Source: Nocardioidaceae bacterium SCSIO 66511
Lineage (GTDB): Bacteria; Actinomycetota; Actinomycetes; Propionibacteriales; Nocardioidaceae
Length of the DNA stretch: 64,000 nt
NCBI GenBank assembly: GCA_023100825.1
Contig: CP095846.1
Location: forward strand, 1,984,001-2,048,000
Direction of reading: 5' to 3'
The notes under the pieces are model-generated. The model saw only the letters and a program-made list of their open reading frames with translations. It made no database searches and was not told the DNA's origin. A program made the translations under genes and the position numbers. This document shows, piece after piece, positions 9,869 through 21,329 of this stretch (its first letter is position 1; each line of letters starts with the position of its first letter).

Positions 9869-10215
9869 GTTCGACTCGGCGTCACATCCGTACCGGTGGT
9901 CGCTGTCGTACCAGCGGGCATGGCAACGTGTCACGTTGCACGGCGTGTTTGCCGTGGGGAGCGGATGCTTGCCGTGCAGAGCGCGCGGGAAGTGGCGCTT
10001 CACCATGCTTACTTGGTAAACGACCACCACCGAATCGGCGAAAACCCAACAGAAACGGGAAAGTCGGCGACGAACCCCCAGGCCGAGGCTCGCGGCCCGC
10101 GTCGCCGCGTCTTTGCCCGGCCGTCGAGGTAGCAAGGCCGAAAGCGACGAGAAATCGGGCAGGCTGGTAGTCGCACCGAAAGCGCGGTTGAAGCCGGCAG
10201 CGGCGAGGGGTGACG
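9869..10215 (+). repeat. Dispersed palindromic repeat, copy 1 (core plus right arm)
   Basis: The core at 9869-10033 matches cores at 20.7, 30.8 and 58.0 kb: GTCACATCCGTACCGGTGGT at its start and ACCACCACCGA at its end. The right arm to about 10215 contains GTCGCCGCGTCTTTG and GGTAGTCGCACC, shared with copies 3 and 4, but no left arm is recognisable, so this copy looks truncated. It carries about 31 extra bases within the first hairpin region, including a duplicated GCCGTG segment, which shifts any reading frame. It fills most of the 766-base gap between the divergent M14 peptidase and lacI-type genes. The rest of the gap (9642-9868) shows no convincing gene. Confidence 0.8.
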
Positions 10216-10302
10216 CGGCGGGTTGACGCCGGAGGAGCCAATCTCCACCGGGGCCGTACGAGCAGAAGCCCGGAGCGATTCGCGTTCCGTAGGGGCAGGG
10301 CG

Positions 10303-10331
10303 TTGACAGCGCGAACCGCGAGGGTTAGATT
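10303..10331 (+). promoter_or_regulatory. Sigma-70-type promoter of the lacI-ABC-DraG operon
   Basis: TTGACA at 10303-10308 and TAGATT at 10326-10331 are separated by 17 bases, close to consensus. The predicted transcription start near 10338 lies immediately before a perfect operator palindrome, so bound repressor would block initiation. Confidence 0.75.
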
Positions 10332-10340
10332 CTGCGCAAT

Positions 10341-10356
10341 CCGTAAACGTTTACGG
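10341..10356. promoter_or_regulatory. LacI-family operator O1
   Basis: CCGTAAACGTTTACGG is a perfect 16-base palindrome with the central CG typical of LacI/GalR operators. It sits just downstream of the predicted transcription start and about 50 bases upstream of the LacI-type start codon, indicating autoregulation of the whole operon. Confidence 0.8.
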
Positions 10357-10375
10357 GCTTCGGCTCGGTCTGTCC

Positions 10376-10388
10376 TGTAAACGTTTCC
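10376..10388. promoter_or_regulatory. LacI-family operator O2 (half-degenerate)
   Basis: TGTAAACGTTTCC repeats the left half of O1 exactly (GTAAACGTTT) 35 bases downstream, which is a little over three helical turns. Two sites on one face could allow cooperative binding or a small loop. The sequence AAACGTTTCC also occurs at 9678-9687 before the M14 peptidase gene. Confidence 0.65.
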
Positions 10389-10407
10389 GACCTCCGGGAG
10401 AAGCACG

Positions 10408-11433
10408 ATGACGCAAGACCCCCATGCTGCGCCGACGATCCACACCGTCGCCGACGCCGCAGGCGTGTCTATCGCTTCGGTCTCCCGAGTCCTGAACGGA
10501 TTGACGACCAACGAGGAGACGATCCAGCGCGTACGCGCAGCTGTCGATGAGGTCGGGTACGTGCCCAACTCGGCGGCGAAGTCGCTGAAGACCAGCCAGA
10601 CCGGACAGATCGCGTTCGCGATGGAGAACATCGGCAACGCGGCGTATCTCGCAATGGTGCAGGCGATCCAGCCGGTGCTGCGTCAGGCGGGATACCGGCT
10701 GCTGTTGCACAGTACGAATGCCGACACCTCCGACGAGATCGACGTACTCCGCAGCCTCGGCCAGCGTTACGTCGACGGGTTGATCATGTGCCCGCTGCGG
10801 GTGACTCGTCGCCACCTCACCGAGCTCAAGCGCGCACAGTCGCCGGTCGTGGTGATCGGTCGGCTGCCCAAGTCCTGCCCCGTGGACAACGTCCATGTCG
10901 ACTCGCGTCCCGGCGTCGCCCGTGCGGTGGCGCACCTCGCCGAGCAGGGGCGTACCCGGATCGCATTGGTCGATGGGCCGCTCGACACCGTGCCGGGCAA
11001 GTCCCGGTACGCCGGCTACCAGGACGGTCTCGCCGAAGTGGGCATGACCGAGGACGCCGCTCGGGTCGCGTTCACTGACTTCACCGTCGAAGGGGGAGCG
11101 AAGGCGGCTGCCGAGATGTTGAAAGCCAAGCGGCCGCCGGACGCGTTCTTCGCGGCCAACGACTTGATGGCTCTCGGCGTCCTACAGGCGGTCCGCGAAG
11201 CCGGGCTCGACGTACCCGGCGACGTAGCCGTCGTCGGCATGGACGATACGGAGTTGGCGACCTCTTCGTGGCCGCCGCTGTCGAGTGTGTCGCTCGGCGC
11301 GCGCGAGCGTGGTCGGCTCGCGGCGGAGCTGCTGCTCGAGCGGCTGGCAAATCCCGGGCGTACACCGCACCGGATCAGCGTCGAGCCCGAACTCGTCGTA
11401 CGTGCGAGCTCCGGTACGGAGAGCACTCGATGA
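10408..11433 (+). CDS. LacI/GalR family repressor of the operon
   Basis: A 341-residue regulator with an N-terminal helix-turn-helix (TIHTVADAAGVSIASVSRVL, residues 11-30), a hinge helix ending near residue 60, and a periplasmic-binding-protein-like effector domain (LSQR-type RYVDGLIMCPL, AFFAANDLMALGVLQAVREA, VVGMDDTELATSSWPPLSSV). Members bind short CG-centred palindromes and are released by sugars. Two matching palindromes precede this gene, so it probably represses itself and the nine genes that follow. Its stop overlaps the first permease start (ATGA). The inducer is presumably the sugar or glycoside taken up by the operon's transporter. RBS GGGAGAAGC precedes the ATG. Confidence 0.93.
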   Translation: MTQDPHAAPTIHTVADAAGVSIASVSRVLNGLTTNEETIQRVRAAVDEVGYVPNSAAKSLKTSQTGQIAFAMENIGNAAYLAMVQAIQPVLRQAGYRLLLHSTNADTSDEIDVLRSLGQRYVDGLIMCPLRVTRRHLTELKRAQSPVVVIGRLPKSCPVDNVHVDSRPGVARAVAHLAEQGRTRIALVDGPLDTVPGKSRYAGYQDGLAEVGMTEDAARVAFTDFTVEGGAKAAAEMLKAKRPPDAFFAANDLMALGVLQAVREAGLDVPGDVAVVGMDDTELATSSWPPLSSVSLGARERGRLAAELLLERLANPGRTPHRISVEPELVVRASSGTESTR

Positions 11434-12332
11434 CCGCGACGACAGCGCCGACGGCACGCAAACCGTTCGTCGGCAACGGTGCCTGGCTGCTGCTCCTTCC
11501 TGCGCTGCTGCCGATCCTCGTCCTCAGCGTCTATCCGCTGTTGCGCGGCGTCTATCTCGGCTTCACCGACGCTCGCGCCGGCTACAACCTCCAGACGAAC
11601 TTCATCGGCCTCGACAACTACCGCGAGCTGTTGTCCGATGAGCTGTTCTGGGAGTCGTTCCGGATCGGACTGGTGTGGACGGTGTCGGTCACCGTGATCC
11701 AGTTCTTCCTCGCACTCGGCCTCGCTCTGCTCCTGAACCTCGACCTTCGGGGTCGCCTACTTGCCCGCACCCTTGCGGTCGTGCCGTGGGCGATGCCGCC
11801 CGTCGTCGTCGGCATCATGTGGTCGCTGGTGTACCGGCCGGATGCCGGTCTGCTGAACGAGATCCTGTACCGCGTCGGCCTCGAAGACCTCGGCGCGAAC
11901 TGGCTGGGGGAGTTTCACACCGCGCTTCCTGCCGTGATCGTGGTGGGCGTCTGGGCAGGCATGCCGGTCACGACGGTCGTGCTGCTGGCCTCACTACAGG
12001 GTGTTCCGCACGAGCTGCACGAAGCGGCGGCGATCGACGGAGCCAGTGCGTGGTCGCGGTTCAAGAACATCACCTGGCCGCATCTGCGCAGTGTGGTCGC
12101 CGCCATCACGACGTTGAACTTCATCTGGAACTTCAACTCGTTCGACCTCGTGTACGTCCTCACCAAGGGTGGCCCCGGCGGCAAGACGACGCTACCGATG
12201 CTGTTCGCGTACGACGAGGCGTTCCGCTACGGCAACTACGGGTACGCGGCCGCGCTCGGCAACGTGATGGTGCTGATCGTGCTGGTGTTCATCCTGATCT
12301 ACCTCCGCCGCCGGCTGAAGGAGTCCGCATGA
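11430..12332 (+). CDS. Carbohydrate ABC transporter permease, MalF/UgpA type
   Basis: A 300-residue inner membrane permease with six predicted helices. The cytoplasmic EAA loop that contacts the ATPase reads EAAAIDGASAWSRFKNITWP near residue 205, normal for carbohydrate uptake transporters of the CUT1 class. The start ATG overlaps the repressor stop by four bases. With the next gene it forms the heterodimeric channel of a sugar importer. No ATPase gene lies in the operon or anywhere nearby, so it probably borrows a shared MsiK-type ATPase encoded elsewhere, as is common in actinomycetes. Confidence 0.93.
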   Translation: MTATTAPTARKPFVGNGAWLLLLPALLPILVLSVYPLLRGVYLGFTDARAGYNLQTNFIGLDNYRELLSDELFWESFRIGLVWTVSVTVIQFFLALGLALLLNLDLRGRLLARTLAVVPWAMPPVVVGIMWSLVYRPDAGLLNEILYRVGLEDLGANWLGEFHTALPAVIVVGVWAGMPVTTVVLLASLQGVPHELHEAAAIDGASAWSRFKNITWPHLRSVVAAITTLNFIWNFNSFDLVYVLTKGGPGGKTTLPMLFAYDEAFRYGNYGYAAALGNVMVLIVLVFILIYLRRRLKESA

Positions 12333-13258
12333 GCACCGAAACGGCGAAGCCGGCGCGGGCGGTGAGCGATCCGGGTCGGTCGACCGCCACGCGCTCGCGG
12401 CGTCCGCGACGCCGCAACCCGATGAACCATGTGTCGCCAGGCGTACGCGCACTTCAGTACGCAGCCCTTGCGGCGTACCTGGTGTTCCTGGCGTTCCCAC
12501 TGCTGTGGATGCTCTCGACCGCGTTCGCCTCGCCCCAGGATCTCGTCGCGTTGCATCCCGGGATCATCCCCGACAACCCGACGCTCGACAATTTCGTCGA
12601 CGCGTTCACCGAGCAGGCGTTGGTGCGCTCGGCGTTCAACAGCCTGATCGTCGCGGTCGCGAGCGCCGCATTGACCGTCGTACTCGCGGTTCCGGCGGCG
12701 TACGCGTTGGTGCGGCTGCGCACGTGGATGACCAAGCCGGTGCTCGGTTGGGTGCTGCTCAGCCAGCTGTTCCCGTTCATCCTCGTGGTGATCCCGATCT
12801 TCCTGATGCTGCGTGACGCGCAGCTGGTCGATACGCGGATCGGCCTGATCCTGATCTACGTCGTGTGGATCATGCCGTTCGCCCTCTGGATGCTGCAGGG
12901 CTACGTGCGCGAGCTGCCGGTCGACCTCGAGGAGGCTGCGAGCATGGACGGCGCGGGGAGGGTTCAGATCCTGCGCGCGATCGTCTTCCCGCTGCTCCTG
13001 CCCGGCATCATCGCCACCACCCTGTTTGCGTTCATCACCGCTTGGAACGAGTTCTTCTTTGCACTGGTGCTGATCAAGAGCCCCGAGCTCGAGACGCTCC
13101 CGCTGACGCTCGCGCGATTCGTCGGTCTCGAAGGTGTCGCCCGTCTCGGCCCGCTCGCCGCCGGCTCGCTACTCGCAACGATCCCGAGCCTCGTCTTCTT
13201 CTCGTTCATTCAGCGCGGTCTCACCGGCGGACTGATGTCCGGTGCGACCAAGGGATAA
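12329..13258 (+). CDS. Carbohydrate ABC transporter permease, MalG/UgpE type
   Basis: A 309-residue permease, partner of the previous gene. The first 45 residues are unusually basic and polar (TRSRRPRRRNPMNHVSPG), then six hydrophobic helices follow. The EAA loop is EEAASMDGAGRVQILRAIVF near residue 205. The C-terminus QRGLTGGLMSGATKG is the signature end of CUT1 MalG-type permeases. It overlaps the preceding gene by ATGA and is separated from the binding-protein gene by 12 bases. The function is sugar or glycoside import; the specific substrate cannot be read. Confidence 0.93.
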   Translation: MSTETAKPARAVSDPGRSTATRSRRPRRRNPMNHVSPGVRALQYAALAAYLVFLAFPLLWMLSTAFASPQDLVALHPGIIPDNPTLDNFVDAFTEQALVRSAFNSLIVAVASAALTVVLAVPAAYALVRLRTWMTKPVLGWVLLSQLFPFILVVIPIFLMLRDAQLVDTRIGLILIYVVWIMPFALWMLQGYVRELPVDLEEAASMDGAGRVQILRAIVFPLLLPGIIATTLFAFITAWNEFFFALVLIKSPELETLPLTLARFVGLEGVARLGPLAAGSLLATIPSLVFFSFIQRGLTGGLMSGATKG

Positions 13259-13270
13259 GGAGCCCAACCC

Positions 13271-14551
13271 ATGAAATCAAGACTTCTCAGCGTCGTCGCG
13301 GTCAGTGCGGCCGTCGTTGGGCTGACCAGCGCATGTGGCGGTGACGACGGCTCGGGCGACGGAGGAAAGGTCGAGCTTCGGTTCCAGAGCCTCGCGTGGC
13401 AGGACGCATCGATCGCCGCCAACAAGGAGATCGTCGCCGAGTGGAACGACGAACACCCGGACGTCCAGGTGACCTACGACGGCGCCGAGTGGGACTCCGT
13501 ACACGACAAGCTGCTCACGGCCTTCGAGGGCGGTGACCCGCCGGACATCATCCATTACGAGGCATCGGCCGGACAGGTGTTCGCCGAAGGAGGCTATTTC
13601 GCGGACCTCGACCCGCTCCTCTCGGACGACTTCAAGTCCGGCATCGCCGACGATGTCTGGGACACCGTGAAGTACGACGACTACGGAACGGTCGGCGTAC
13701 CGTTTCTGATGGAGAACCGTCTTCCGATCGCCAACGCCACGCTGCTGAAGCAGGCGGGCGTCAAGATCCCGACGCCCGATGACCCGTGGACGTGGGACGA
13801 GTTCGCGGCGGCGGCAAAGAAGCTCACGAACGACGACACGTACGGCGTTGCGTTCCCGCTCGGTGATCCGGCAAACGCCATGGTCACGCTGTCGCAGAAC
13901 TTCGGCGGCGAGTACGTCGCCGACGGCCCCGAGATCTCGGCGGGCGACGAGGAGATCGAGGTACCCGAGCGTATTCACTCCATGCTGTACGACGACAAGA
14001 GCGCTTCGTCCGACACCGTCAGCTTGACCAGTACCGACGCGCTGCCCGGGTTCTTCGGCGGGAAGTACGCGATGGTCTTCGGCGCGACCTGGCTGCGCCA
14101 GCAGATGGTCGAGGAGTCTCCGGACGGCTTCGACTGGGTGACCATTCCACCGATCGAGGGCACCGAAGGCGCGACGCAGGCGGTCAACCCGCAGACCCTC
14201 TCGGTGGCCGCTCAGTCCGAGCATCCCGAGGAGGCCGCGGAGTTCATCGAGTTCTTCCTCGACGGCCAGAACATGGCCCGACTCGCCGAAGGCGACTGGC
14301 TCGTACCGACGAGTGACGATGCGCTCGACGCACTGCAGAAGCGGACCAACGGCAAGCAGGGATGGGATGTCGCGCTCGCGTCGGCAGATACGCTGACCGC
14401 CGCACCGTGGCGTCGTACGCCCGGTTTCCAGGAGTGGATGGACAAGATCGCGACGCCGGCGTTCCAGAAGTACTTCGGCGACGACATCGATGAGGACGAG
14501 CTCGTCTCCGAACTGGAGGACGGCAGCGACCTGTTGTCGGAGTCGCGTTGA
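13271..14551 (+). CDS. Extracellular solute-binding lipoprotein (family 1, sugar)
   Basis: A 426-residue ABC substrate-binding protein. The N-terminus is a lipoprotein signal with lipobox LTSAC, giving Cys22 as the lipidated residue, followed by a flexible Gly/Asp-rich linker. The body has the family 1 (MalE/UgpB-like) pattern: FEGGDPPDIIHYEASAGQVF near residue 80, VPFLMENRLPIANATLLKQA near 145 and PGFFGGKYAMVFGATWL near 260. The C-terminal tail is very acidic. AAGGAGCCCAACCC precedes the ATG. It captures the substrate outside the membrane and delivers it to the two preceding permeases. Its TTGA overlap with the next gene couples uptake to the glycohydrolases. Confidence 0.92.
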   Translation: MKSRLLSVVAVSAAVVGLTSACGGDDGSGDGGKVELRFQSLAWQDASIAANKEIVAEWNDEHPDVQVTYDGAEWDSVHDKLLTAFEGGDPPDIIHYEASAGQVFAEGGYFADLDPLLSDDFKSGIADDVWDTVKYDDYGTVGVPFLMENRLPIANATLLKQAGVKIPTPDDPWTWDEFAAAAKKLTNDDTYGVAFPLGDPANAMVTLSQNFGGEYVADGPEISAGDEEIEVPERIHSMLYDDKSASSDTVSLTSTDALPGFFGGKYAMVFGATWLRQQMVEESPDGFDWVTIPPIEGTEGATQAVNPQTLSVAAQSEHPEEAAEFIEFFLDGQNMARLAEGDWLVPTSDDALDALQKRTNGKQGWDVALASADTLTAAPWRRTPGFQEWMDKIATPAFQKYFGDDIDEDELVSELEDGSDLLSESR

Positions 14552-15549
14552 GTACGAACGGGCCGAGCAGAGAGCGTGCACGCGGTTGCCTGGCGGGACT
14601 GGCGGTCGGAGACGCGCTCGGCCGTCCGGCGGAGGGCATGGAGCCCGACGAGATCGCCGAGCGCTGGGGGCGCATCGAGGGGTACGTCGCCGACACGCCC
14701 CTCGGCAGTGACGACACGGAGTACGCGTTGCTCACGGCGAAGGCGCTGCTGACGTACCGGGAGAGGTTCAGCGCCGAGACCGTCGCGGATCTGTGGTACG
14801 CCGAGGTCGTGACGCAACGCGGAGGTTTCGCGGGCGGCGGCTTCAGCGAGATGGCTACGATCCGCAACCTCGAGCGCGGGCATCGGCCGCCGCGTTCGGG
14901 GCAGCACGCGCACGGTTGGAGCGACGGGCTCGCGATGCGGGTCGCGCCGATCGGCATCGTCGCGACGGGCGACCCGCAGGAGGCTGCGCGCTTGGCCGAG
15001 CAGGATGGCCTCGTCAGCCACAGCCACGAAGGTATCTACGCGGGCCAGGCAGTCGCTGCCGCGGTAGCGGTCGCGATGGACGGGGCCGACGCCGACCAGG
15101 CCTATGCCGCCGCGCTTGCGGCGGTGCCGGAGGACTCCTGGACGGCGCGAGACCTACGCCGCGGGCACGAGATCGTGCGTACCTCGCCGGACTGGTCGAC
15201 GGCAGGGCGAACGGCGGTCGCCGAGCTGGGCGTGCATCGTTACTACTGGGCAGACCTCGCACCCGAGGCGGTTGCATTGGCGTTCGTCGCCGTGCTGGCC
15301 GGTGCGGGTGACTTTCGCGAGACGGTCCTGAATGCGGTCAACCTCGGCCGCGACGCTGACACGATCGCGGCGATGGCCGGCGGTATCGCGGGCGCGATGA
15401 GCGGCATCGACGCGGTGCCCGCCGAGTGGCTGCCCGCCGTAGCTGTTGCTCCCGGCGTGTGCCTGCTGACGACGAAGGGGATGGATCCGATGGAGGTCGC
15501 CGACGACCTGTGCACACTGGCAGTCGAGTTGGGTGACGGGCGTGGCTGA
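14548..15549 (+). CDS. ADP-ribosylglycohydrolase (DraG/ARH) family protein, copy A
   Basis: A 333-residue all-helical DraG-family protein, starting at a TTG that overlaps the binding-protein stop. The dinuclear Mg site is intact: GLAVGDALG near residue 18, Asp55-Asp56-Thr57 in GSDDTEYAL, and Asp269/Asp271 in GRDADTIAAMAGGIAGA. Family members hydrolyse the bond between ADP-ribose, or a related ribosyl group, and an acceptor such as arginine or acetate; many family members have unassigned substrates. It lies in a sugar-uptake operon with two paralogues and a ribokinase-like gene, so I infer it cleaves an imported ribosyl-type glycoside rather than acting on modified proteins. No signal peptide, so cytoplasmic. 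Confidence 0.87.
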   Translation: MSTNGPSRERARGCLAGLAVGDALGRPAEGMEPDEIAERWGRIEGYVADTPLGSDDTEYALLTAKALLTYRERFSAETVADLWYAEVVTQRGGFAGGGFSEMATIRNLERGHRPPRSGQHAHGWSDGLAMRVAPIGIVATGDPQEAARLAEQDGLVSHSHEGIYAGQAVAAAVAVAMDGADADQAYAAALAAVPEDSWTARDLRRGHEIVRTSPDWSTAGRTAVAELGVHRYYWADLAPEAVALAFVAVLAGAGDFRETVLNAVNLGRDADTIAAMAGGIAGAMSGIDAVPAEWLPAVAVAPGVCLLTTKGMDPMEVADDLCTLAVELGDGRG

Positions 15550-16588
15550 GCGCAGCATCACCCAACGCACGTACGACACGGTCGCCGGTCTCAGCGCGGG
15601 CGATGCCGTGACGTGGTCGTCGTGGTGGCATCGCATGGCCAAACTCGGCCCGCGCCGGGCAGTACGTCTCGGTGAGGCGCGTGACCATGCGCGTGAGGCC
15701 GTGACGACCACCATTCCGACGCCGTACCTACATGCGTCGTCACCCGAACTGATCGACCCTGCGGGGCCGACCGACGACACCGAGTGGTTCGTGGTGGCCG
15801 TACGCCATCTGCTCGGGCAACGTCTCGACGGGACACCCACCGGCGAGCAGCACGGTGTCTGGGCAGAGCTCGCGGCGCTGCGGGCCGAGGGCGCCGCAGC
15901 GGTACGTGCCCGCATCGGTACGTCGATCGCGCTCGACAACCTGCAGCGAGGCGCGTACCCGCCCGTCAGCGGGCACGACAACCCGCACTATTTCGACGAC
16001 ATCGCATGCGTACGTGCCGTGGCGGCCGGTCTGTTGAGGCCGGGCGATGCGTCGGCGGCCGCTGGTCTCGCGGCGACCGATGCAGGGGTGACCCATGCAC
16101 TCGACGGCGTCTGGGGTGCGCGGGCCACCGCGGCTCTCGTCGCGTTGCTGGCCGCCGGAGGCGATCGTCAGGCGGCCGTCGACGCGGCTCTTCGCGAGCT
16201 ACCCGCCGAGAGTTGGATCGCGCACGTCGTGAGCGAATGCCTGTCGGTCGTCGAGCCGGCAGCGACTCCTGTCGACCTGGGTGCCAGGCTCGAACGCGAG
16301 GCAGTTGACCACGTCTACTCGTACGCGAACCAAGCGCCCGAGTCGCTCGGTCTCGTACTCGCGCATCTGAGCGTGGCCGACAGCTTCGATGCGATGCTGC
16401 TCGGTGCGCTCTGCCACCCACGGCACGCCGACGGGCTCGTACCACTCGCGGGAGCCGTTGCAGGTGCGGCGTTCGGCGGGCAGCGTCGCGACCTGCCGAG
16501 CCTCAAGGGCGTTTGCGTACGCGACCTCGACGGGGTCTCGCTCGACTCGGTCGTACACGAGATCATCGGCGGACAGGAGACGGTCTGA
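15533..16588 (+). CDS. ADP-ribosylglycohydrolase family protein, copy B (metal site partly lost)
   Basis: A 351-residue DraG-family protein overlapping copy A by 17 bases. The start is a GTG at 15533, or the in-frame GTG at 15542. The first motifs survive as SAGDAVTWSSWWH near residue 23 and Asp81-Asp82-Thr83 in PTDDTEWFV. However, the C-terminal metal motif, GRDADT in copy A, aligns here with HPRHADG, so one Asp has become His and the Thr has become Gly. The following helix LAGAVAGAAFGG is kept. It may be an inactive or regulatory subunit, or use altered chemistry. The intact reading frame and tight coupling argue against simple decay. Confidence 0.8.
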   Translation: MTGVAERSITQRTYDTVAGLSAGDAVTWSSWWHRMAKLGPRRAVRLGEARDHAREAVTTTIPTPYLHASSPELIDPAGPTDDTEWFVVAVRHLLGQRLDGTPTGEQHGVWAELAALRAEGAAAVRARIGTSIALDNLQRGAYPPVSGHDNPHYFDDIACVRAVAAGLLRPGDASAAAGLAATDAGVTHALDGVWGARATAALVALLAAGGDRQAAVDAALRELPAESWIAHVVSECLSVVEPAATPVDLGARLEREAVDHVYSYANQAPESLGLVLAHLSVADSFDAMLLGALCHPRHADGLVPLAGAVAGAAFGGQRRDLPSLKGVCVRDLDGVSLDSVVHEIIGGQETV

Positions 16589-17739
16589 TGAGTCTGCTCG
16601 ACAAGACGCTCGGATGCCTTGTCGGCGCCGCGGTCGGTGATGCGCTGGGTGGCGCCACCGAAGGCTGGACGCCGGCGCAGATCCGGGAGCGCTGGGGTGG
16701 TTGGGTTGAAGGCATCGTCCCGCCGTACTACGACGACTGGCGCACTGCGCGGCCGATTGCGCCGTACCACAAGGGTGATGGGCATGTCACCGACGACACG
16801 TTGATGACGCGACTGCTGATGGACGTGTACGCCGACAAGTCCGACCACCTCGACGCGTACGACGTCGCGGAGCGGTTGGTTCCGCGGATGATCTCCGAGC
16901 AGGTGTGGATTCCCGAGCTGGAACAGCACGCGCTGCCGCTGCAACGCGTCTTCCTTGCGGAGAAGTACATGGCGCTGCGCCTGCACTGGGGGCACGTCGA
17001 CCCACGCGAGGCCGGCATCGGCAACGCGGTCAACTGCGGCGCAGCGATGTACATCGCTCCCGTCGGTGTCGTCAACGCCGCCGACCCGGACTCCGCGTAC
17101 GCAGAGGCGATCGATATCGCAGGCGCACATCAAGCGTCGTACGGACGTGAGGCGGCCGGGGTGATGGCCGCGGCCGTCGCGTCGGCGATGGATCCGGACG
17201 CCACGGTCGACTCGGTGTACGACGCGGCGATCCGTCTCGCGCGCGACGGCACCCGCTCCGCGCTCGTAGCCGTGTGGGACGCGGCCGGAAGCGTCGGGAC
17301 CTGGGCTGAGGCGATCGAGTCCGGCGTACTGCGCGATGCGATGCGTCCGTACGACACGGTCGCCGATACGTACCGCGACCAGGGGCTCGGCGCGAGGCGG
17401 CCGAGCCGCGTGCACAGCATCGAGGAGCTCCCGCTCGCGTTCGGGTTCTTGCGTATCGCCAACGGCGACTGGCGGGAGACGGTTCTCGGAGGCGTGAACT
17501 ACGGGCGTGACTCCGACTCGATCGCGACGATGGGCGGTGCGATCGCGGGTGCACTAGGAGGTGAGTCGGCGGTACCGAGCGATCTCGCTTGCGCGGTCGC
17601 CGAAGCGAGTGGTCTCGACCTCGCCGGTCCGGCGCGTGAGCACGCCGCCGTCGCAGAGCGGATCCGGGTCGGCGACCACGAGCGACGCGTACGGATCGAG
17701 AAGTCGTACGGGCGGCTGCTTGACGGGCAGAGCCGATGA
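16588..17739 (+). CDS. ADP-ribosylglycohydrolase (DraG/ARH) family protein, copy C
   Basis: A 383-residue DraG-family protein. Its ATG shares one base with the stop of copy B (TGATG). Metal-binding motifs are complete: GAAVGDALGGATEGW at residues 13-27, Asp69-Asp70-Thr71 in VTDDTLMTRLLMD, and Asp308/Asp310 in GRDSDSIATMGGAIAGA. An insertion around residues 40-65 (WVEGIVPPYYDDWRTARPIA) distinguishes it from copy A and suggests different substrate recognition. Related standalone proteins of this length with a VEG-PPYYDDW segment are common in actinobacterial sugar operons. The stop overlaps the following kinase gene (ATGA). It is probably a cytoplasmic glycohydrolase acting in the same pathway as copy A. 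Confidence 0.87.
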   Translation: MSLLDKTLGCLVGAAVGDALGGATEGWTPAQIRERWGGWVEGIVPPYYDDWRTARPIAPYHKGDGHVTDDTLMTRLLMDVYADKSDHLDAYDVAERLVPRMISEQVWIPELEQHALPLQRVFLAEKYMALRLHWGHVDPREAGIGNAVNCGAAMYIAPVGVVNAADPDSAYAEAIDIAGAHQASYGREAAGVMAAAVASAMDPDATVDSVYDAAIRLARDGTRSALVAVWDAAGSVGTWAEAIESGVLRDAMRPYDTVADTYRDQGLGARRPSRVHSIEELPLAFGFLRIANGDWRETVLGGVNYGRDSDSIATMGGAIAGALGGESAVPSDLACAVAEASGLDLAGPAREHAAVAERIRVGDHERRVRIEKSYGRLLDGQSR

Positions 17740-18650
17740 GCCCGACCATCGCCGTCTTCGGCAGCGCGAACATGGACCACGTCGTACGGGTCGAGTCGGC
17801 ACCGCAACGCGGAGAGACGCTCACCGGCCGGTCGTACGACCAGCTGGTCGGCGGCAAAGGCGCCAACCAAGCACTTGCCGCGGCGCGTGCGGGAGCGGCC
17901 GTACGCATGGTCGGTGCCGTGGGCGATGACGCGGACGGCGCGGCAATCAGAGACGTGCTCCGAAGCGACGGCGTGGATACGAGTTCGCTCGACACTGTGC
18001 ACGTGTCGAGCGGTACCGCACACATCACCGTCGACGACCGAGGCGACAACTCGATCATCGTGGTGCCGGGAGCCAACGGCGAGGTGCGTACGCTCACCGA
18101 TTCGCACCGGCACGCGATCGCCGGATCAGACATGCTCCTTCTCCAGCTGGAACTGCCACTGGAGGCGGTCGTCGAGGCGGCGGCGTACGCCCGAAGCGTG
18201 GGCGTGCCGGTGATGCTGACGCCTGCGCCGGTGCTGCCGCTGACCGCAGCCCAGCTTGACGACGTCGACGTGCTGGTGCTCAACGAGCCCGAGTCAGCGG
18301 GTCTTTCGGGCGTAGCCGATCCGAGAAGGGCCGCCCGCGCCCTCGTCGAGATGGGCGTCGACGTCGTGGTCGTCACCCTGGGGGAGCGGGGATGCCTCTG
18401 TGTTGCGTCCGACGCTGACGAGGTGATCGAGGAATCGGCTCCGGCCGTCGAGGCGGTCGACACCACGGCTGCGGGCGACACGTTCGCGGGCTGTCTCGCG
18501 GTCGCCCTCGCGGAGGGTCGCGATCGCCGCGCAGCGCTGCTTTGGGCAGGTACGGCTGCGGCGCTGTCCGTACAGAGTTTCGGAGCATCGACGTCGATGC
18601 CCACCCGGGCGGCGATCGAGGCCGCCTTGGCAGAGAGGGGCGACGAATGA
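17736..18650 (+). CDS. PfkB-family carbohydrate kinase, ribokinase-like
   Basis: A 304-residue kinase. Motif 1 is VGGKGANQALAAARAGA (residues 34-50), which reads like ribokinase, and motif 2 is DTTAAGDTFAGCLAVALAEG with the catalytic Asp in AAGD. The N-terminal VFGSANMDHVVRV also matches ribokinases (GSxNxD). It overlaps its neighbours on both sides by ATGA. In this operon it would phosphorylate the furanose released by the DraG-family glycohydrolases, trapping it as a 5-phosphate for the pentose phosphate pathway. Specificity for ribose over another furanose or nucleoside is inference. Confidence 0.88.
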   Translation: MSPTIAVFGSANMDHVVRVESAPQRGETLTGRSYDQLVGGKGANQALAAARAGAAVRMVGAVGDDADGAAIRDVLRSDGVDTSSLDTVHVSSGTAHITVDDRGDNSIIVVPGANGEVRTLTDSHRHAIAGSDMLLLQLELPLEAVVEAAAYARSVGVPVMLTPAPVLPLTAAQLDDVDVLVLNEPESAGLSGVADPRRAARALVEMGVDVVVVTLGERGCLCVASDADEVIEESAPAVEAVDTTAAGDTFAGCLAVALAEGRDRRAALLWAGTAAALSVQSFGASTSMPTRAAIEAALAERGDE

Positions 18651-19837
18651 GCGACACCGCAATGCCGCTCGACGGGTTGCGCGTCATCGACGTGTCGACC
18701 CTGTTCGCCGGACCCCAGGCAGCCATGCACCTCGGCGACTTCGGCGCGGAGGTGATCAAGATCGAGCATCCCCGAATGCCCGACCCGGCGCGCGGGCACG
18801 GTGCGGCCAAGGACGGCCACAACCTTTGGTGGAAGACGATCGGGCGTAACAAGCGAACGATGACCTTGGACCTCGGCCGGGCCGAGGGGCAAGAGGTCTT
18901 CCGCCGCCTCGCGGACACAGCCGACGCGGTGATCGAGAACTTCCGACCCGACACCTTGGAACGCTGGCAGCTGGGCCCGGACCAGTTGCAGGAAACGAAT
19001 CCCGGGCTCGTCGTGGCCCGTCTCACCGGCTTCGGACAGATCGGTCCGTACCGACGCCGACCGGGCTTCGGCACCTTGGCCGAGGCGATGAGCGGATTCG
19101 CTGCTTTGACCGGTGAGCCGGACGGGCCGCCGACATTGCCGCCGTTCGGACTCGCCGACGGCATCGCGGGGCTCGCGACCGCCTACGCCGTGCTCACCGC
19201 GCTGCACGCGCGCCACTCGACCGGTCGTGGCCAGGTCGTCGACCTCGCGCTGATCGAACCGATCATGGCGATCCTGGGGCCGCAGGTGAGCCGTTGGGAC
19301 CAGCTCGGCACGGTCCAGCCCCGCAGAGGCAATCGATCGAGCGATAATGCGCCCCGCAACACGTACCGCACGGCAGACGGCAACTGGGTCGCGATCTCCA
19401 CAAGTGCGCAGAGCATCGCGGCGCGGGTCATGCACATCGTCGGTCGGCCGGATCTCGTCGATGAACCGTGGTTCGCTACGGGCAGTGGTCGGGTCGAGCA
19501 CGCCGACCTACTCGACTCGGTCGTCGGAGACTGGGTCGGTCAGCACACGCGCGACCAGGTCGTCGCGACGTTCGAGCGTGCGGAGGCGGCGATCGCACCG
19601 ATCTACGATGCGTCCGACATCGTCGAGGACCCGCAGTACGCCGCGCTCGGCACGATCCAGACGGTCGACGACCCGGATCTCGGCCCGCTCGCAATGCATA
19701 ACGTGCTCTTCCGGATGTCGGAGACACCGGGTGGTATTCGCTGGACCGGACGCGGACACGGAGCCGACACCGACGAGCTCCTCGAGGAGCTCGGCGTCGG
19801 TGATGTCGACGCCCTGCGTGAGCAGGGGATCGTATGA
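18647..19837 (+). CDS. Family III CoA-transferase (CaiB/BaiF type)
   Basis: A 396-residue CoA-transferase. The N-terminal pattern LRVIDVSTLFAGPQAAMHLG and DFGAEVIKIEHP is characteristic, and the catalytic Asp is expected at residue 171 in PPFGLADGIAGLA. Enzymes of this family move CoA from an acyl-CoA donor to a carboxylic acid such as formate/oxalate, carnitine, itaconate or citramalate. It overlaps the kinase gene and the CitE-like gene by ATGA. Placed after sugar-handling genes, it may activate the acid aglycone of the imported compound for cleavage by the next enzyme. This is inference from gene order; the acid is unknown. Confidence 0.9.
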   Translation: MSDTAMPLDGLRVIDVSTLFAGPQAAMHLGDFGAEVIKIEHPRMPDPARGHGAAKDGHNLWWKTIGRNKRTMTLDLGRAEGQEVFRRLADTADAVIENFRPDTLERWQLGPDQLQETNPGLVVARLTGFGQIGPYRRRPGFGTLAEAMSGFAALTGEPDGPPTLPPFGLADGIAGLATAYAVLTALHARHSTGRGQVVDLALIEPIMAILGPQVSRWDQLGTVQPRRGNRSSDNAPRNTYRTADGNWVAISTSAQSIAARVMHIVGRPDLVDEPWFATGSGRVEHADLLDSVVGDWVGQHTRDQVVATFERAEAAIAPIYDASDIVEDPQYAALGTIQTVDDPDLGPLAMHNVLFRMSETPGGIRWTGRGHGADTDELLEELGVGDVDALREQGIV

Positions 19838-20694
19838 CGCCCGCCGCGCGCGAGCTGGCGGTCACGTACCTCTACGTGCCTGCCGATCGGCCGGAGCGAG
19901 TGGCGAAGGCCTTCACGCTCGGCGCCGACGTCGTCATCATGGATCTCGAGGATGCCGTCGCCCCGGAAGCGAAGGTGGCTGCGCGCTCCGCGCTGCCGGC
20001 TCTGGTGAGCGCCCGCGGCGAGCAGCGGGTGCAGGTACGCGTCAACGCTGTCGACACCGAGTACGCTGCGGCCGACCTCGCCACGGTCGCCGGTCTCGAC
20101 ACCGACATCGAGGTACGCCTGCCCAAGGTCGAGTCGCCGCAGACGATCGACGAGGTACGCCGACTACTAGGAGGCGAACGCCCGATCCATGCGCTGGTGG
20201 AAACTGCGATCGGCATCGAGCAGGCCTTCGACATCGCGAGGTACGGGCCGCCTTTGGCATCGATCGGACTGGGCGAGGCCGATCTCCGCTCGGCCCTCGG
20301 CGTCTCCGACGACCGGGCGCTGGAGTGGGCGCGTGGGCGCATCGTGGTGGCCGCCGCGGCGGCCGGCCTACCGGCGCCGGCCCAGTCGCCGTACTTGAAC
20401 GTACGCGACCTCGTCGGCCTCAGTGAGTCGTCGCAGACCGGGCGTTCGCACGGGTTCGTGGGGCGTTGCGCCATCCATCCCGCGCAGCTGGCGCCGATCC
20501 GGGCGGCGTACCGTCCGGTCACTGAAGAGGTGGTGCGGGCGCAGGCGACACTCGACCGGCTGGCTCACGGCGCAGTAGACGTGCTCGACGACGGGAGCTT
20601 CATCGACCCCGCGATGGTCGGCGCTGCCCGCCGCGTACTGGACCTCGAACGACTCACTCGGGAGCCCGGCACTCGCTCGGGCTCGGCCAGCTAG
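19834..20694 (+). CDS. HpcH/HpaI aldolase / citrate lyase beta (CitE-like) protein
   Basis: A 286-residue TIM-barrel lyase of the CitE family. Mg and substrate contacts are visible in DVVIMDLEDAVAPEAK near residue 30, the arginine in VQVRVNA near 70, RLPKVESP near 95, and ALVETAIGIEQAF near 125, where the Glu is a metal ligand. Standalone CitE-like enzymes cleave or form malyl-CoA, citramalyl-CoA or hydroxymethylglutaryl-type CoA esters. It directly follows a family III CoA-transferase, so the pair could activate an acid as its CoA ester and then split it. It ends the ten-gene operon. The stop is followed after one base by repeat copy 2. Confidence 0.88.
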   Translation: MTPAARELAVTYLYVPADRPERVAKAFTLGADVVIMDLEDAVAPEAKVAARSALPALVSARGEQRVQVRVNAVDTEYAAADLATVAGLDTDIEVRLPKVESPQTIDEVRRLLGGERPIHALVETAIGIEQAFDIARYGPPLASIGLGEADLRSALGVSDDRALEWARGRIVVAAAAAGLPAPAQSPYLNVRDLVGLSESSQTGRSHGFVGRCAIHPAQLAPIRAAYRPVTEEVVRAQATLDRLAHGAVDVLDDGSFIDPAMVGAARRVLDLERLTREPGTRSGSAS

Positions 20695-20695
20695 C

Positions 20696-20830
20696 GTTCG
20701 GTTTCGGTGTCGCCACCGTACCGGTGGTCGCTGGCGTACCAACGGGCACGGCAACCTGCCACTTTGCATGGCGTCCCTGCCGTGCAGAGTGGAGTTTCAC
20801 CATGTTTACTTGGTAAAGCACCACCACCGA
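20696..20830 (+). repeat. Dispersed palindromic repeat, copy 2 (core only)
   Basis: A core of about 135 bases shared with three other loci. It contains the hairpin with arms CCACTTTGCATGG and CCGTGCAGAGTGG (13 pairs, two of them G-T), then TTTCACCATGTTTACTTGGTAAA and ACCACCACCGA. No long arms are present. It starts one base after the citE-like stop and lies between two convergent genes, where it may also work as a terminator. The remaining 31 bases to the next gene show nothing else apart from tandem CTAG at 20858-20865. Confidence 0.8.
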
Positions 20831-20861
20831 AGCGACCGGGAACCGACAGCGAAGCAGCTAG

Positions 20862-21329
20862 CTAGCGCTTGCGGTGCTCGGCCAGCATGTCGACGGACTT
20901 GGCGATCCTGCGCTCGCGGGTGGCCGCTGCCTTCGCGCCCTCGATCGACTCCACATGGAAGCGTTTGAGGCTGTACGAAAGGGTCTCGAAGAACGCCTCA
21001 GCCGTTGGGTTCCGAGCCAACGCCGCCGCAAAGTCGGCCGGAACGCTCACCTCGCGCGGGGTGGTATCGAGGGTGAGCGTCACATCGAGCTCGTCGTTGG
21101 CCGCCACACCCGCCGCCTCGCGGTTTGCTGCACTGACGCCGACCATGAAACGCCCGCCCATCGAGGCGACCGTGCTCCGGTACGTGTGGCCGTTGATGTT
21201 CACCTGCACTGGTGGTCGTTTGCCGCCGCCGAGTCTGTCCACGACATCGTCCGGTACCACGATCCCTGTTGCAGTCTTGCCCGACTGCTCGAGGACCGCC
21301 CGGAACTCGACGCTCGGCGATTCGCTCAT
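20862..21329 (-). CDS. YdeI/OmpD-associated-like protein with DUF1905 domain
   Basis: A 155-residue cytoplasmic protein. The N-terminal half is a DUF1905 beta-barrel-like domain (GKTATGIVVPDDVVDRLGGG, then VQVNINGHTYRSTVA and MGGRFMVGVSAANR). The C-terminal half (VPADFAAALARNPTAEAFFE, then LSYSLKRFHVESIEGAKAA) is the YdeI/OmpD-associated helical domain. The arrangement is common in actinobacteria; no biochemical role is established that I know of. I chose the ATG at 21329 because GAAGGAGC lies just upstream; an ATG 21 bases earlier is weaker. It converges with the citE-like gene across repeat copy 2. Confidence 0.78.
   Translation of the reverse strand: MSESPSVEFRAVLEQSGKTATGIVVPDDVVDRLGGGKRPPVQVNINGHTYRSTVASMGGRFMVGVSAANREAAGVAANDELDVTLTLDTTPREVSVPADFAAALARNPTAEAFFETLSYSLKRFHVESIEGAKAAATRERRIAKSVDMLAEHRKR

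Follow-up and report, generated by a model that had tools for sequence, protein, structure and literature searches.

The locus considered here raises the question of why three different members of the DraG/ARH family should be encoded side by side in an operon for sugar import. It lies in a 64,000-nucleotide window, the whole stretch of DNA analyzed (positions 1,984,001 to 2,048,000 of contig CP095846.1, assembly GCA_023100825.1, from Nocardioidaceae bacterium SCSIO 66511), as a tightly coupled ten-gene operon, lacI-malF-malG-sbp-draG1-draG2-draG3-rbsK-caiB-citE, at 10408–20694. From the operon structure, operators, family memberships, conserved gene set and metal-motif states observed here, we lean towards a LacI-regulated system for the import and catabolism of a ribofuranoside-like conjugate with a hydroxy-carboxylic acid as its other half, in which the reactions, the order of the steps and the substrate class are inferred. 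That the operon serves an external nutrient, rather than the control of ADP-ribosylation, we hold with considerable confidence. Its features are the following.

10303–10331, forward strand: sigma-70-like promoter, TTGACA-17-TAGATT, the only promoter-like match within 10000–21000
10341–10356, forward strand: LacI operator 1, CCGTAAACGTTTACGG, a perfect 16-mer palindrome directly downstream of the −10 element
10375–10390, forward strand: LacI operator 2, CTGTAAACGTTTCCGA, an imperfect palindrome
10408–11433, forward strand: lacI, transcriptional repressor, 341 residues (PF00356, PF13377; nearest NCBIfam model RbsR)
11430–12332, forward strand: malF-type CUT1 permease, 300 residues (from its translation; named from its position and its homologues in relatives, without a Pfam scan of its own)
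12329–13258, forward strand: malG-type CUT1 permease, 309 residues (PF00528)
13271–14551, forward strand: sbp, solute-binding lipoprotein, 426 residues (PF01547, SBP_bac_1; AlphaFold 2 model)
14548–15549, forward strand: draG1, DraG/ARH family, 333 residues, TTG start (PF03747, E 8.7e-65; alignment)
15533–16588, forward strand: draG2, DraG/ARH fold, 351 residues (PF03747, E 2.4e-22; alignments; AlphaFold 2 model)
16588–17739, forward strand: draG3, DraG/ARH family, 383 residues from its ATG (PF03747, E 1.1e-49, the score of the longer open reading frame that was scanned; alignment)
17736–18650, forward strand: rbsK, ribokinase-like PfkB kinase, 304 residues (PF00294; TIGR02152)
18647–19837, forward strand: caiB, class III coenzyme A (CoA) transferase, 396 residues (PF02515, E 7.9e-117; Asp171 in an LADG motif)
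19834–20694, forward strand: citE, HpcH/HpaI-type acyl-CoA C–C lyase, 286 residues (PF03328, E 5.9e-27; nearest NCBIfam model RipC_Ccl)

The genes overlap by 4 nucleotides at lacI/malF, malF/malG, sbp/draG1, draG3/rbsK, rbsK/caiB and caiB/citE, by 17 at draG1/draG2 and by 1 at draG2/draG3, leaving the 12-nucleotide gap between malG and sbp as the sole non-overlapping junction. The initial annotation had described three consecutive DraG-family genes (333, 351 and 383 residues, 14548–17739) set between an ATP-binding cassette (ABC) sugar-binding lipoprotein and a ribokinase-like kinase, coupled by overlapping genes under one LacI; the PF03747 and other Pfam matches confirm the trio and its neighbors, and the coupling is as described, with lacI first and the one gap just mentioned. 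A genome-wide search found no PF03747 matches other than draG1, draG2 and draG3.

The argument from the promoter is one of position and not of count, because shuffled sequences average 0.7 matches. The operator core, GTAAACGTTTMC, occurs in only two places in the 4.6 Mb genome, which are the two operators of the operon, and the putative LacI operator is GTAAACGTTTAC. Like-type operators were present upstream of lacI in all 12 loci inspected, and in 11 of them 7 or more of the 8 palindromic pairs are intact; locus L077 has two imperfect operators before lacI, and the rhizobial clusters carry a different palindrome, around TGGTAACGTTCCCA. Against its nearest NCBIfam model, RbsR, the repressor scores 201 bits, under the cut-off of 382.

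According to the available excerpts of PMC9411070 and PMC5087735, Streptomyces DraG/ARH homologues, those of S. coelicolor among them, are candidate erasers of ADP-ribosylation, and the hydrolases far outnumber the transferases known there. Together with the family name and the metal motifs of DraG1 and DraG3, this would suit a classical role in which the DraGs strip proteins or nucleic acids of ADP-ribose and control the operon or its products. Their embedding in an operon for import and carbon catabolism that has no transferase argues the other way, and we regard this explanation as very improbable. The transferase search was confined to DraT (PF07357), which had no match in the genome, but none in any control genome either. 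The Pfam matches of the operon include no Nudix or other nucleotide enzyme. Given this last result, the group to which the solute-binding protein (SBP) belongs and the inactivity of presumed counterparts on U-alpha-ADPr, as far as the available excerpt of its source goes (see the comparison below), the ADP-ribosyl part of the ribosyl or ADP-ribosyl-type substrate originally suggested finds no support.

The flanking genes are seemingly unrelated. Upstream, the minus strand carries a zinc carboxypeptidase-like gene; downstream follow an endonuclease/phosphatase-like open reading frame and a GDPD gene. PADLOC gave no match for the three DraG proteins, and blastn none among phage records. In three of the loci compared, an esterase-like gene lies directly upstream of lacI (L008, 2838–3668; L010, 876–1700; L011, 2834–3658), with a PF00756 match in L008, the sole one tested.

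The DraG paralogues and their metal sites

All three DraG proteins exceed the PF03747 gathering score of 26.2 bits (DraG1, 219.7; DraG2, 80.4; DraG3, 170.2). In a tree and alignment of 72 sequences they belong to separate clades, DraG1 (n = 12, support 0.988), DraG2 (n = 12, 1.0) and DraG3 (n = 19, 1.0, rhizobial members included), beside a DraG4 clade (n = 10, 0.842) that joins eight lone DraGs first (support 0.993); the DraG4-type proteins of rhizobia are sister to the DraG4 and lone-DraG group (support 1.0). Since each paralogue falls in its own supported clade, the paralogues are old and have been retained side by side. The longest direct DNA repeat common to the draG genes is only 37 nucleotides at 73%, which together with the clades rules out a recent tandem duplication and agrees with the earlier description of the paralogues as differing.

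The metal motifs are complete in DraG1 (DDTEY at 55, GRDADT at 267) and in DraG3 (DDTLM at 69, GRDSDS at 306), where we take DDT and the C-terminal DxD to be the di-metal motifs of the DraG/ARH family. All 72 sequences of the alignment retain the N-terminal DD and, in the C-terminal DxD, its second Asp; DD with both later Asp residues is present in 12/12 DraG1 and 19/19 DraG3 sequences. The first Asp of DxD, in contrast, is present in 60/60 non-DraG2 sequences and 0/12 DraG2 sequences, which have H, N, K, V or L in its place; the DraG2 of the window, which reads RHADG at 297, has lost it. The residue after DxD in DraG2 is S in 9 of 12 sequences, as in DraG3, and only the loss of the Asp counts.

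DraG2 carries a conserved segment, HDNPHYFDD (148–156), of which DNPHYFD is invariant in the DraG2 alignment, and its AlphaFold 2 model (predicted local distance difference test score, pLDDT, 86.1) adopts the complete ARH fold, matching the ARH3 structure 6hh3 with Z 25.1 and a root-mean-square deviation (rmsd) of 3.3 over 276 aligned residues. Among the 111 loci compared, DraG1 (at least 100 bits) accompanies DraG2 in 77 of 81; the exceptions are L027, L072 and L079, which lie at contig ends, and L074, which does not. None of the 30 loci without DraG2 has a DraG1 at this score, and five lone DraGs there match DraG1 best, at 51–71 bits. Because a metal-site Asp is lost and DraG1 is a near-constant companion, DraG2 is probably a partner that is non-catalytic or altered. 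The "three glycohydrolases" of the initial annotation can thus be kept as a family name, but should not be read as three active enzymes, draG2 being without one metal-site Asp.

A rhizobial protein of about 700 residues was considered as a DraG1–DraG2 fusion and ruled out: sequence and tree identify it as a DraG4-type domain with a C-terminal extension, and it therefore provides no fusion evidence for a DraG1–DraG2 complex. The extension, of about 340 residues, is found in the DraG4-type protein encoded after DraG3 in several rhizobial loci, L084, L085 and L159 among them; of three scanned, one matches Laminin_G weakly (E 0.004).

Conservation of the gene set

The 111 loci comprise 80 from a scan with DraG2 (the best 80 of 473 relatives, 70 of them Streptomyces records, one of which bears the title [Kitasatospora] papulosa), 10 rhizobial loci, L090 from Nonomuraea gerenzanensis and 20 control regions. 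They are not independent, and the counts are therefore descriptive and not probabilities. CaiB is found in 83 of the 94 loci with DraG3 vs 1 of the 17 without (L071), and CitE and RbsK in 80 and 65 of the 94 (one RbsK a fragment). Among the 11 DraG3 loci that are missing CaiB, two, L025 and L052, break off too soon to be judged. Where only loci with enough flank are counted, the Streptomyces loci have a near-constant set (DraG1 66/67, DraG3 69/70, DraG4 67/68, RbsK 56/68, CaiB 68/68, CitE 68/68), with adjacent LacI and ABC genes in 2/66, and the 10 other loci of the first scan are more varied (MalF, MalG and SBP 10/10, LacI 8/9, DraG3 9/10, DraG4 2/5, RbsK 2/6, CaiB 6/9, CitE 5/8). In a sample of 396 genomes of the phylum, 10 match DraG3 at E 1e-30, namely the genome of the window itself and 9 of the 10 g33 genomes listed (g33 taken as Streptomyces), most of the genomes without a match being absent from the listing; draG2 is rare in the window's own family (2/25 genomes, its own included).

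The 64 of 66 assessable Streptomyces loci without an adjacent transporter and LacI, yet with DraG3 kept in nearly all of the listed g33 genomes, are what would be expected if the DraG set cleared an intracellular ribosylated metabolite, in salvage or detoxification, with the transporter secondary in some lineages. We judge this improbable, given the presence of MalF, MalG and an SBP in every non-Streptomyces locus of the first scan, the importer in the same place in rhizobia, and an unlinked SBP, 47–50% identical, that 4 of the 10 g33 genomes keep. In those four genomes (L152–L155), a malF-malG-sbp set stands apart from the DraG cluster, near a gene that by eye resembles a glycosyltransferase.

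DraG3 also matched 28 plasmid records, of which 20 were full or near-full matches from Hyphomicrobiales; 10 of these were examined, picked for DraG3. All 10 have DraG3 by design, 9 a DraG4-type gene (not L086), 5 CaiB, 4 CitE and 2 an intact ribokinase (L158 and L160; L087 has a fragment). An ABC importer occupies the same place, and because its SBP gives no alignment with that of the window at E 1e-3, while DraG3, CaiB, CitE and RbsK stay recognizable at 31–45%, the importer has diverged or been exchanged; LacI (32%) and the permeases (22–28%) align weakly.

As a control, 23 further DraG places in the window's taxonomic order were located and 20 regions fetched. Five of these, all from genus g26, contain the same system minus DraG1 and DraG2, in the order lacI-malF-malG-sbp-draG3-draG4-rbsK-(660-residue protein)-caiB-citE. 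The other 15, several of them from the same genomes, lack DraG3 and have CaiB in 0/15, CitE in 0/15 and an RbsK-like gene in 3/15. The gene set is thus conserved among Streptomyces, other actinobacteria and rhizobia, whereas a lack of conservation in any relative would have told against the initial annotation. The scheme put forward at the outset, of import, cleavage, phosphorylation of the furanose and metabolism of the remainder, gains strength from this conservation and from CaiB and CitE, which the initial annotation does not name and which, as candidates for handling the remainder, track DraG3. As DraG1–DraG2 is replaced or joined by DraG4 in other lineages, the system probably deals with two different cleavages, anomers or linkages.

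Several loci show further variations. A conserved protein of 660–670 residues, FGE/SUMF1-like in its C-terminal part and without a Pfam match in its N-terminal half, is encoded inside the cluster in L005 (13882–15894, Pseudonocardia nigra) and between rbsK and caiB in L172 and L174–L177 (g26). In L013 (7230–11622, KSB1) an ABC importer is followed by four DraG-family genes, and no DraG3, CaiB or CitE was found there. Nonomuraea gerenzanensis (L090) has a cluster of DraG1–4 and RbsK with no adjacent CaiB; its best CaiB relative (65%) is at NZ_LT559118 8114829–8115989, about 0.6 Mb from the DraG cluster. In L088 (7923–9017, Halalkalicoccus) and L089 (7851–8867, Microvirga), DraG-family genes have neighbors of mandelate-racemase or galactonate-dehydratase type, which suggests other sugar-acid contexts.

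The sugar and acid halves of the proposed conjugate

The importer is of CUT1 type, with two permeases and the lipoprotein SBP in the operon. None of the ten operon genes encodes its ATPase; the genome's three best ATPase matches lie elsewhere and are 49–59% identical to a rhizobial UgpC. The AlphaFold 2 model of the SBP (pLDDT 88.9) matches 3uor best (Z 41.8, rmsd 2.2, 375 residues aligned), and the 50 structure matches listed span Z 37.5–41.8 with ligands from maltose to dinucleotides, so that the SBP, as modeled, is a member of a large group of oligosaccharide/glycoside binders without a clear ligand. A ligand assignment from the SBP was dropped, given near-equal Z scores across diverse ligands, and no absence is read from it.

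RbsK scores 299.4 bits against TIGR02152 (299.1 in the genome scan), which falls 0.25–0.55 bits short of the cut-off of 299.65, and is the genome's best ribokinase match, the next scoring 294.3. It contains NMD, GGKGAN, LELP and GDTF (residues 12, 39, 138 and 245–250), presumably the substrate motifs of ribokinase. We consider it likely that the sugar is ribose. The same catabolic logic could serve another sugar, either a different furanose or an oligosaccharide yielding a sugar acid for CaiB and the lyase, with RbsK acting on another pentose or intermediate. The shortfall of 0.25 bits in RbsK and its absence from 12 of 68 Streptomyces loci would fit such a substrate, as would the FGE-like cluster protein of six relatives, the likeness of the SBP to oligosaccharide binders and the sugar-acid dehydratase-type genes beside other DraG genes. 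The rank of RbsK in its genome and the separate joining of a ribokinase to DraG3 loci in actinobacteria and in rhizobia favor ribose, and we regard a different sugar as rather unlikely.

For the acid half, CaiB scores 390.9 bits against PF02515 and retains Asp171, which we take to be the catalytic Asp of class III CoA-transferases. Among its best sequence relatives in the PDB are formyl-CoA transferases and a succinate-hydroxymethylglutarate CoA-transferase. Relatives in two annotated Rhodococcus plasmid loci stand beside CitE-type and PrpF or PrpD-type genes, with SLC13 genes in one, which is a dicarboxylate setting; a third such locus carries no annotation. CitE scores 94.8 bits against PF03328 (threshold 25) and 167.3 bits against its best NCBIfam model, RipC_Ccl (NF038242), under the cut-off of 375, and is thus not placed among itaconate C–C lyases by this test. 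Lyases of PF03328 accept hydroxymethylglutaryl-, malyl-, methylmalyl- and citramalyl-CoA, according to the available excerpt of PMC6689899. The settings of the CaiB relatives and these lyase substrates suggest that the second product is a beta-hydroxy acid, perhaps a dicarboxylate; for a beta-hydroxy-dicarboxylate in particular, we see the chances as evenly balanced. An acetoacetyl-CoA-synthetase-like gene (by eye) beside L010 and L011, a possible hint of hydroxymethylglutaryl-CoA cleavage, was left unused, being on the other strand and in two similar loci.

In the pathway that we favor, the CUT1 importer, with an ATPase encoded elsewhere, would bring the conjugate in intact; DraG3, and DraG1 with its near-constant partner DraG2, would cleave the glycosidic bond or bonds through an ARH-type di-metal site; RbsK would phosphorylate the freed ribose; CaiB would load CoA onto the released acid; and the CitE-type lyase would split the beta-hydroxyacyl-CoA, yielding an oxo-acid along with acetyl-CoA (or propionyl-CoA).

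A number of points weigh against this pathway. We know of no common natural ribosyl hydroxy-acid. Neither the RbsK half nor the CaiB/CitE half is strictly tied to the DraGs, since each is missing from some loci: RbsK from the Streptomyces loci counted above, and CaiB/CitE from L010–L013, L084, L086, L087, L090, L158 and L160, while a ribokinase and CaiB/CitE never occur together in the 10 rhizobial loci. Most Streptomyces loci have no adjacent LacI and ABC genes, and the close SBP of the four g33 genomes is unlinked to the DraG cluster. The rhizobial DraG4-type protein is not a strict orthologue of DraG4, because it branches outside the DraG4 and lone-DraG group, and the first 80 loci, mostly Streptomyces, were all fetched by DraG2 similarity. 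Finally, no substrate of the lyase was assigned from its sequence, since the authors of PMC6689899, in the excerpt available, warn that such assignment is unreliable in this family.

More tentatively, and with somewhat less than an even chance in our estimate, DraG1–DraG4 may constitute an unrecognized family of small-molecule glycosidases for a widespread, uncatalogued ribosyl hydroxy-acid, with DraG2 as a degenerate partner subunit. If this is true, a ribosyl hydroxy-acid is eaten by soil, rhizosphere and freshwater bacteria, which points to a nutrient common to bacteria of several habitats, and ADP-ribosylhydrolase activity is one branch of a fold that also serves carbon catabolism. Were the DraGs catabolic glycosidases, their annotation group would change and the conserved Streptomyces set would gain a testable role, for which the SBP, a repressor with a defined operator and the CoA-dependent acid branch are ready targets.

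Comparison with described systems

The open-access literature searched (preprints and most subscription papers lay outside its scope) contained no description of this gene set. Parts of it can be matched to named genes. Locus L046 of S. violaceoruber has the order gltD, gltB, one gene, four DraGs, CaiB, CitE and lgt (glt and lgt named by eye), and SCO2028–2033 of S. coelicolor fits it in the number and order of the genes that lie between gltB and lgt. This arrangement differs from that of the window in having DraG4, in lacking RbsK (in L046) and in having no adjacent transporter or LacI. SCO2028–2031 are named as uncharacterized DraG/ARH homologues in the available excerpt of PMC9411070, the first three also in that of PMC5087735. 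SCO2028 and SCO2030, which on this gene order would correspond to DraG1 and DraG3, were reported inactive on U-alpha-ADPr (PMC13036486, from the excerpt available); this is one substrate, and others are therefore still possible.

With DraG of nitrogen fixers and with ARH1/ARH3, the three DraG proteins share the PF03747 family and fold, and DraG1 and DraG3 also share the di-metal motifs. The differences lie in the catabolic context, in the metal-site Asp lost from DraG2 and in the low identity of DraG2 (14–19%) to the first 36 structure matches listed. A class III CoA-transferase paired with a PF03328 lyase also recalls the itaconate-type route (RipC/Ccl) and the beta-hydroxyacyl-CoA lyase Rv2498c; here, however, the operon has no hydratase, the lyase reaches 167 bits of the 375 needed, and the acid would derive from a glycoside.

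The closest described arrangement is yegTUV of Escherichia coli, which encodes a transporter, a DraG-family protein and a PfkB kinase under the repressor YegW/GgaR, with function unknown according to the available excerpt of PMC10819704. It has a putative nucleoside-type major facilitator superfamily transporter and a GntR regulator, and no CaiB or CitE. Its single DraG is of another lineage, as YegU groups with the lone DraGs L181 and L182 (support 0.993); YegU matches DraG3 best among the DraGs by BLAST, at 24%, and YegV is 22% identical to a rhizobial ribokinase. The lone DraG genes of L181 and L182 themselves have a PfkB-like kinase in the neighborhood, recalling yegUV. What yegTUV and the present operon have in common is an importer, a DraG-family protein and a PfkB kinase placed together in one repressed operon.

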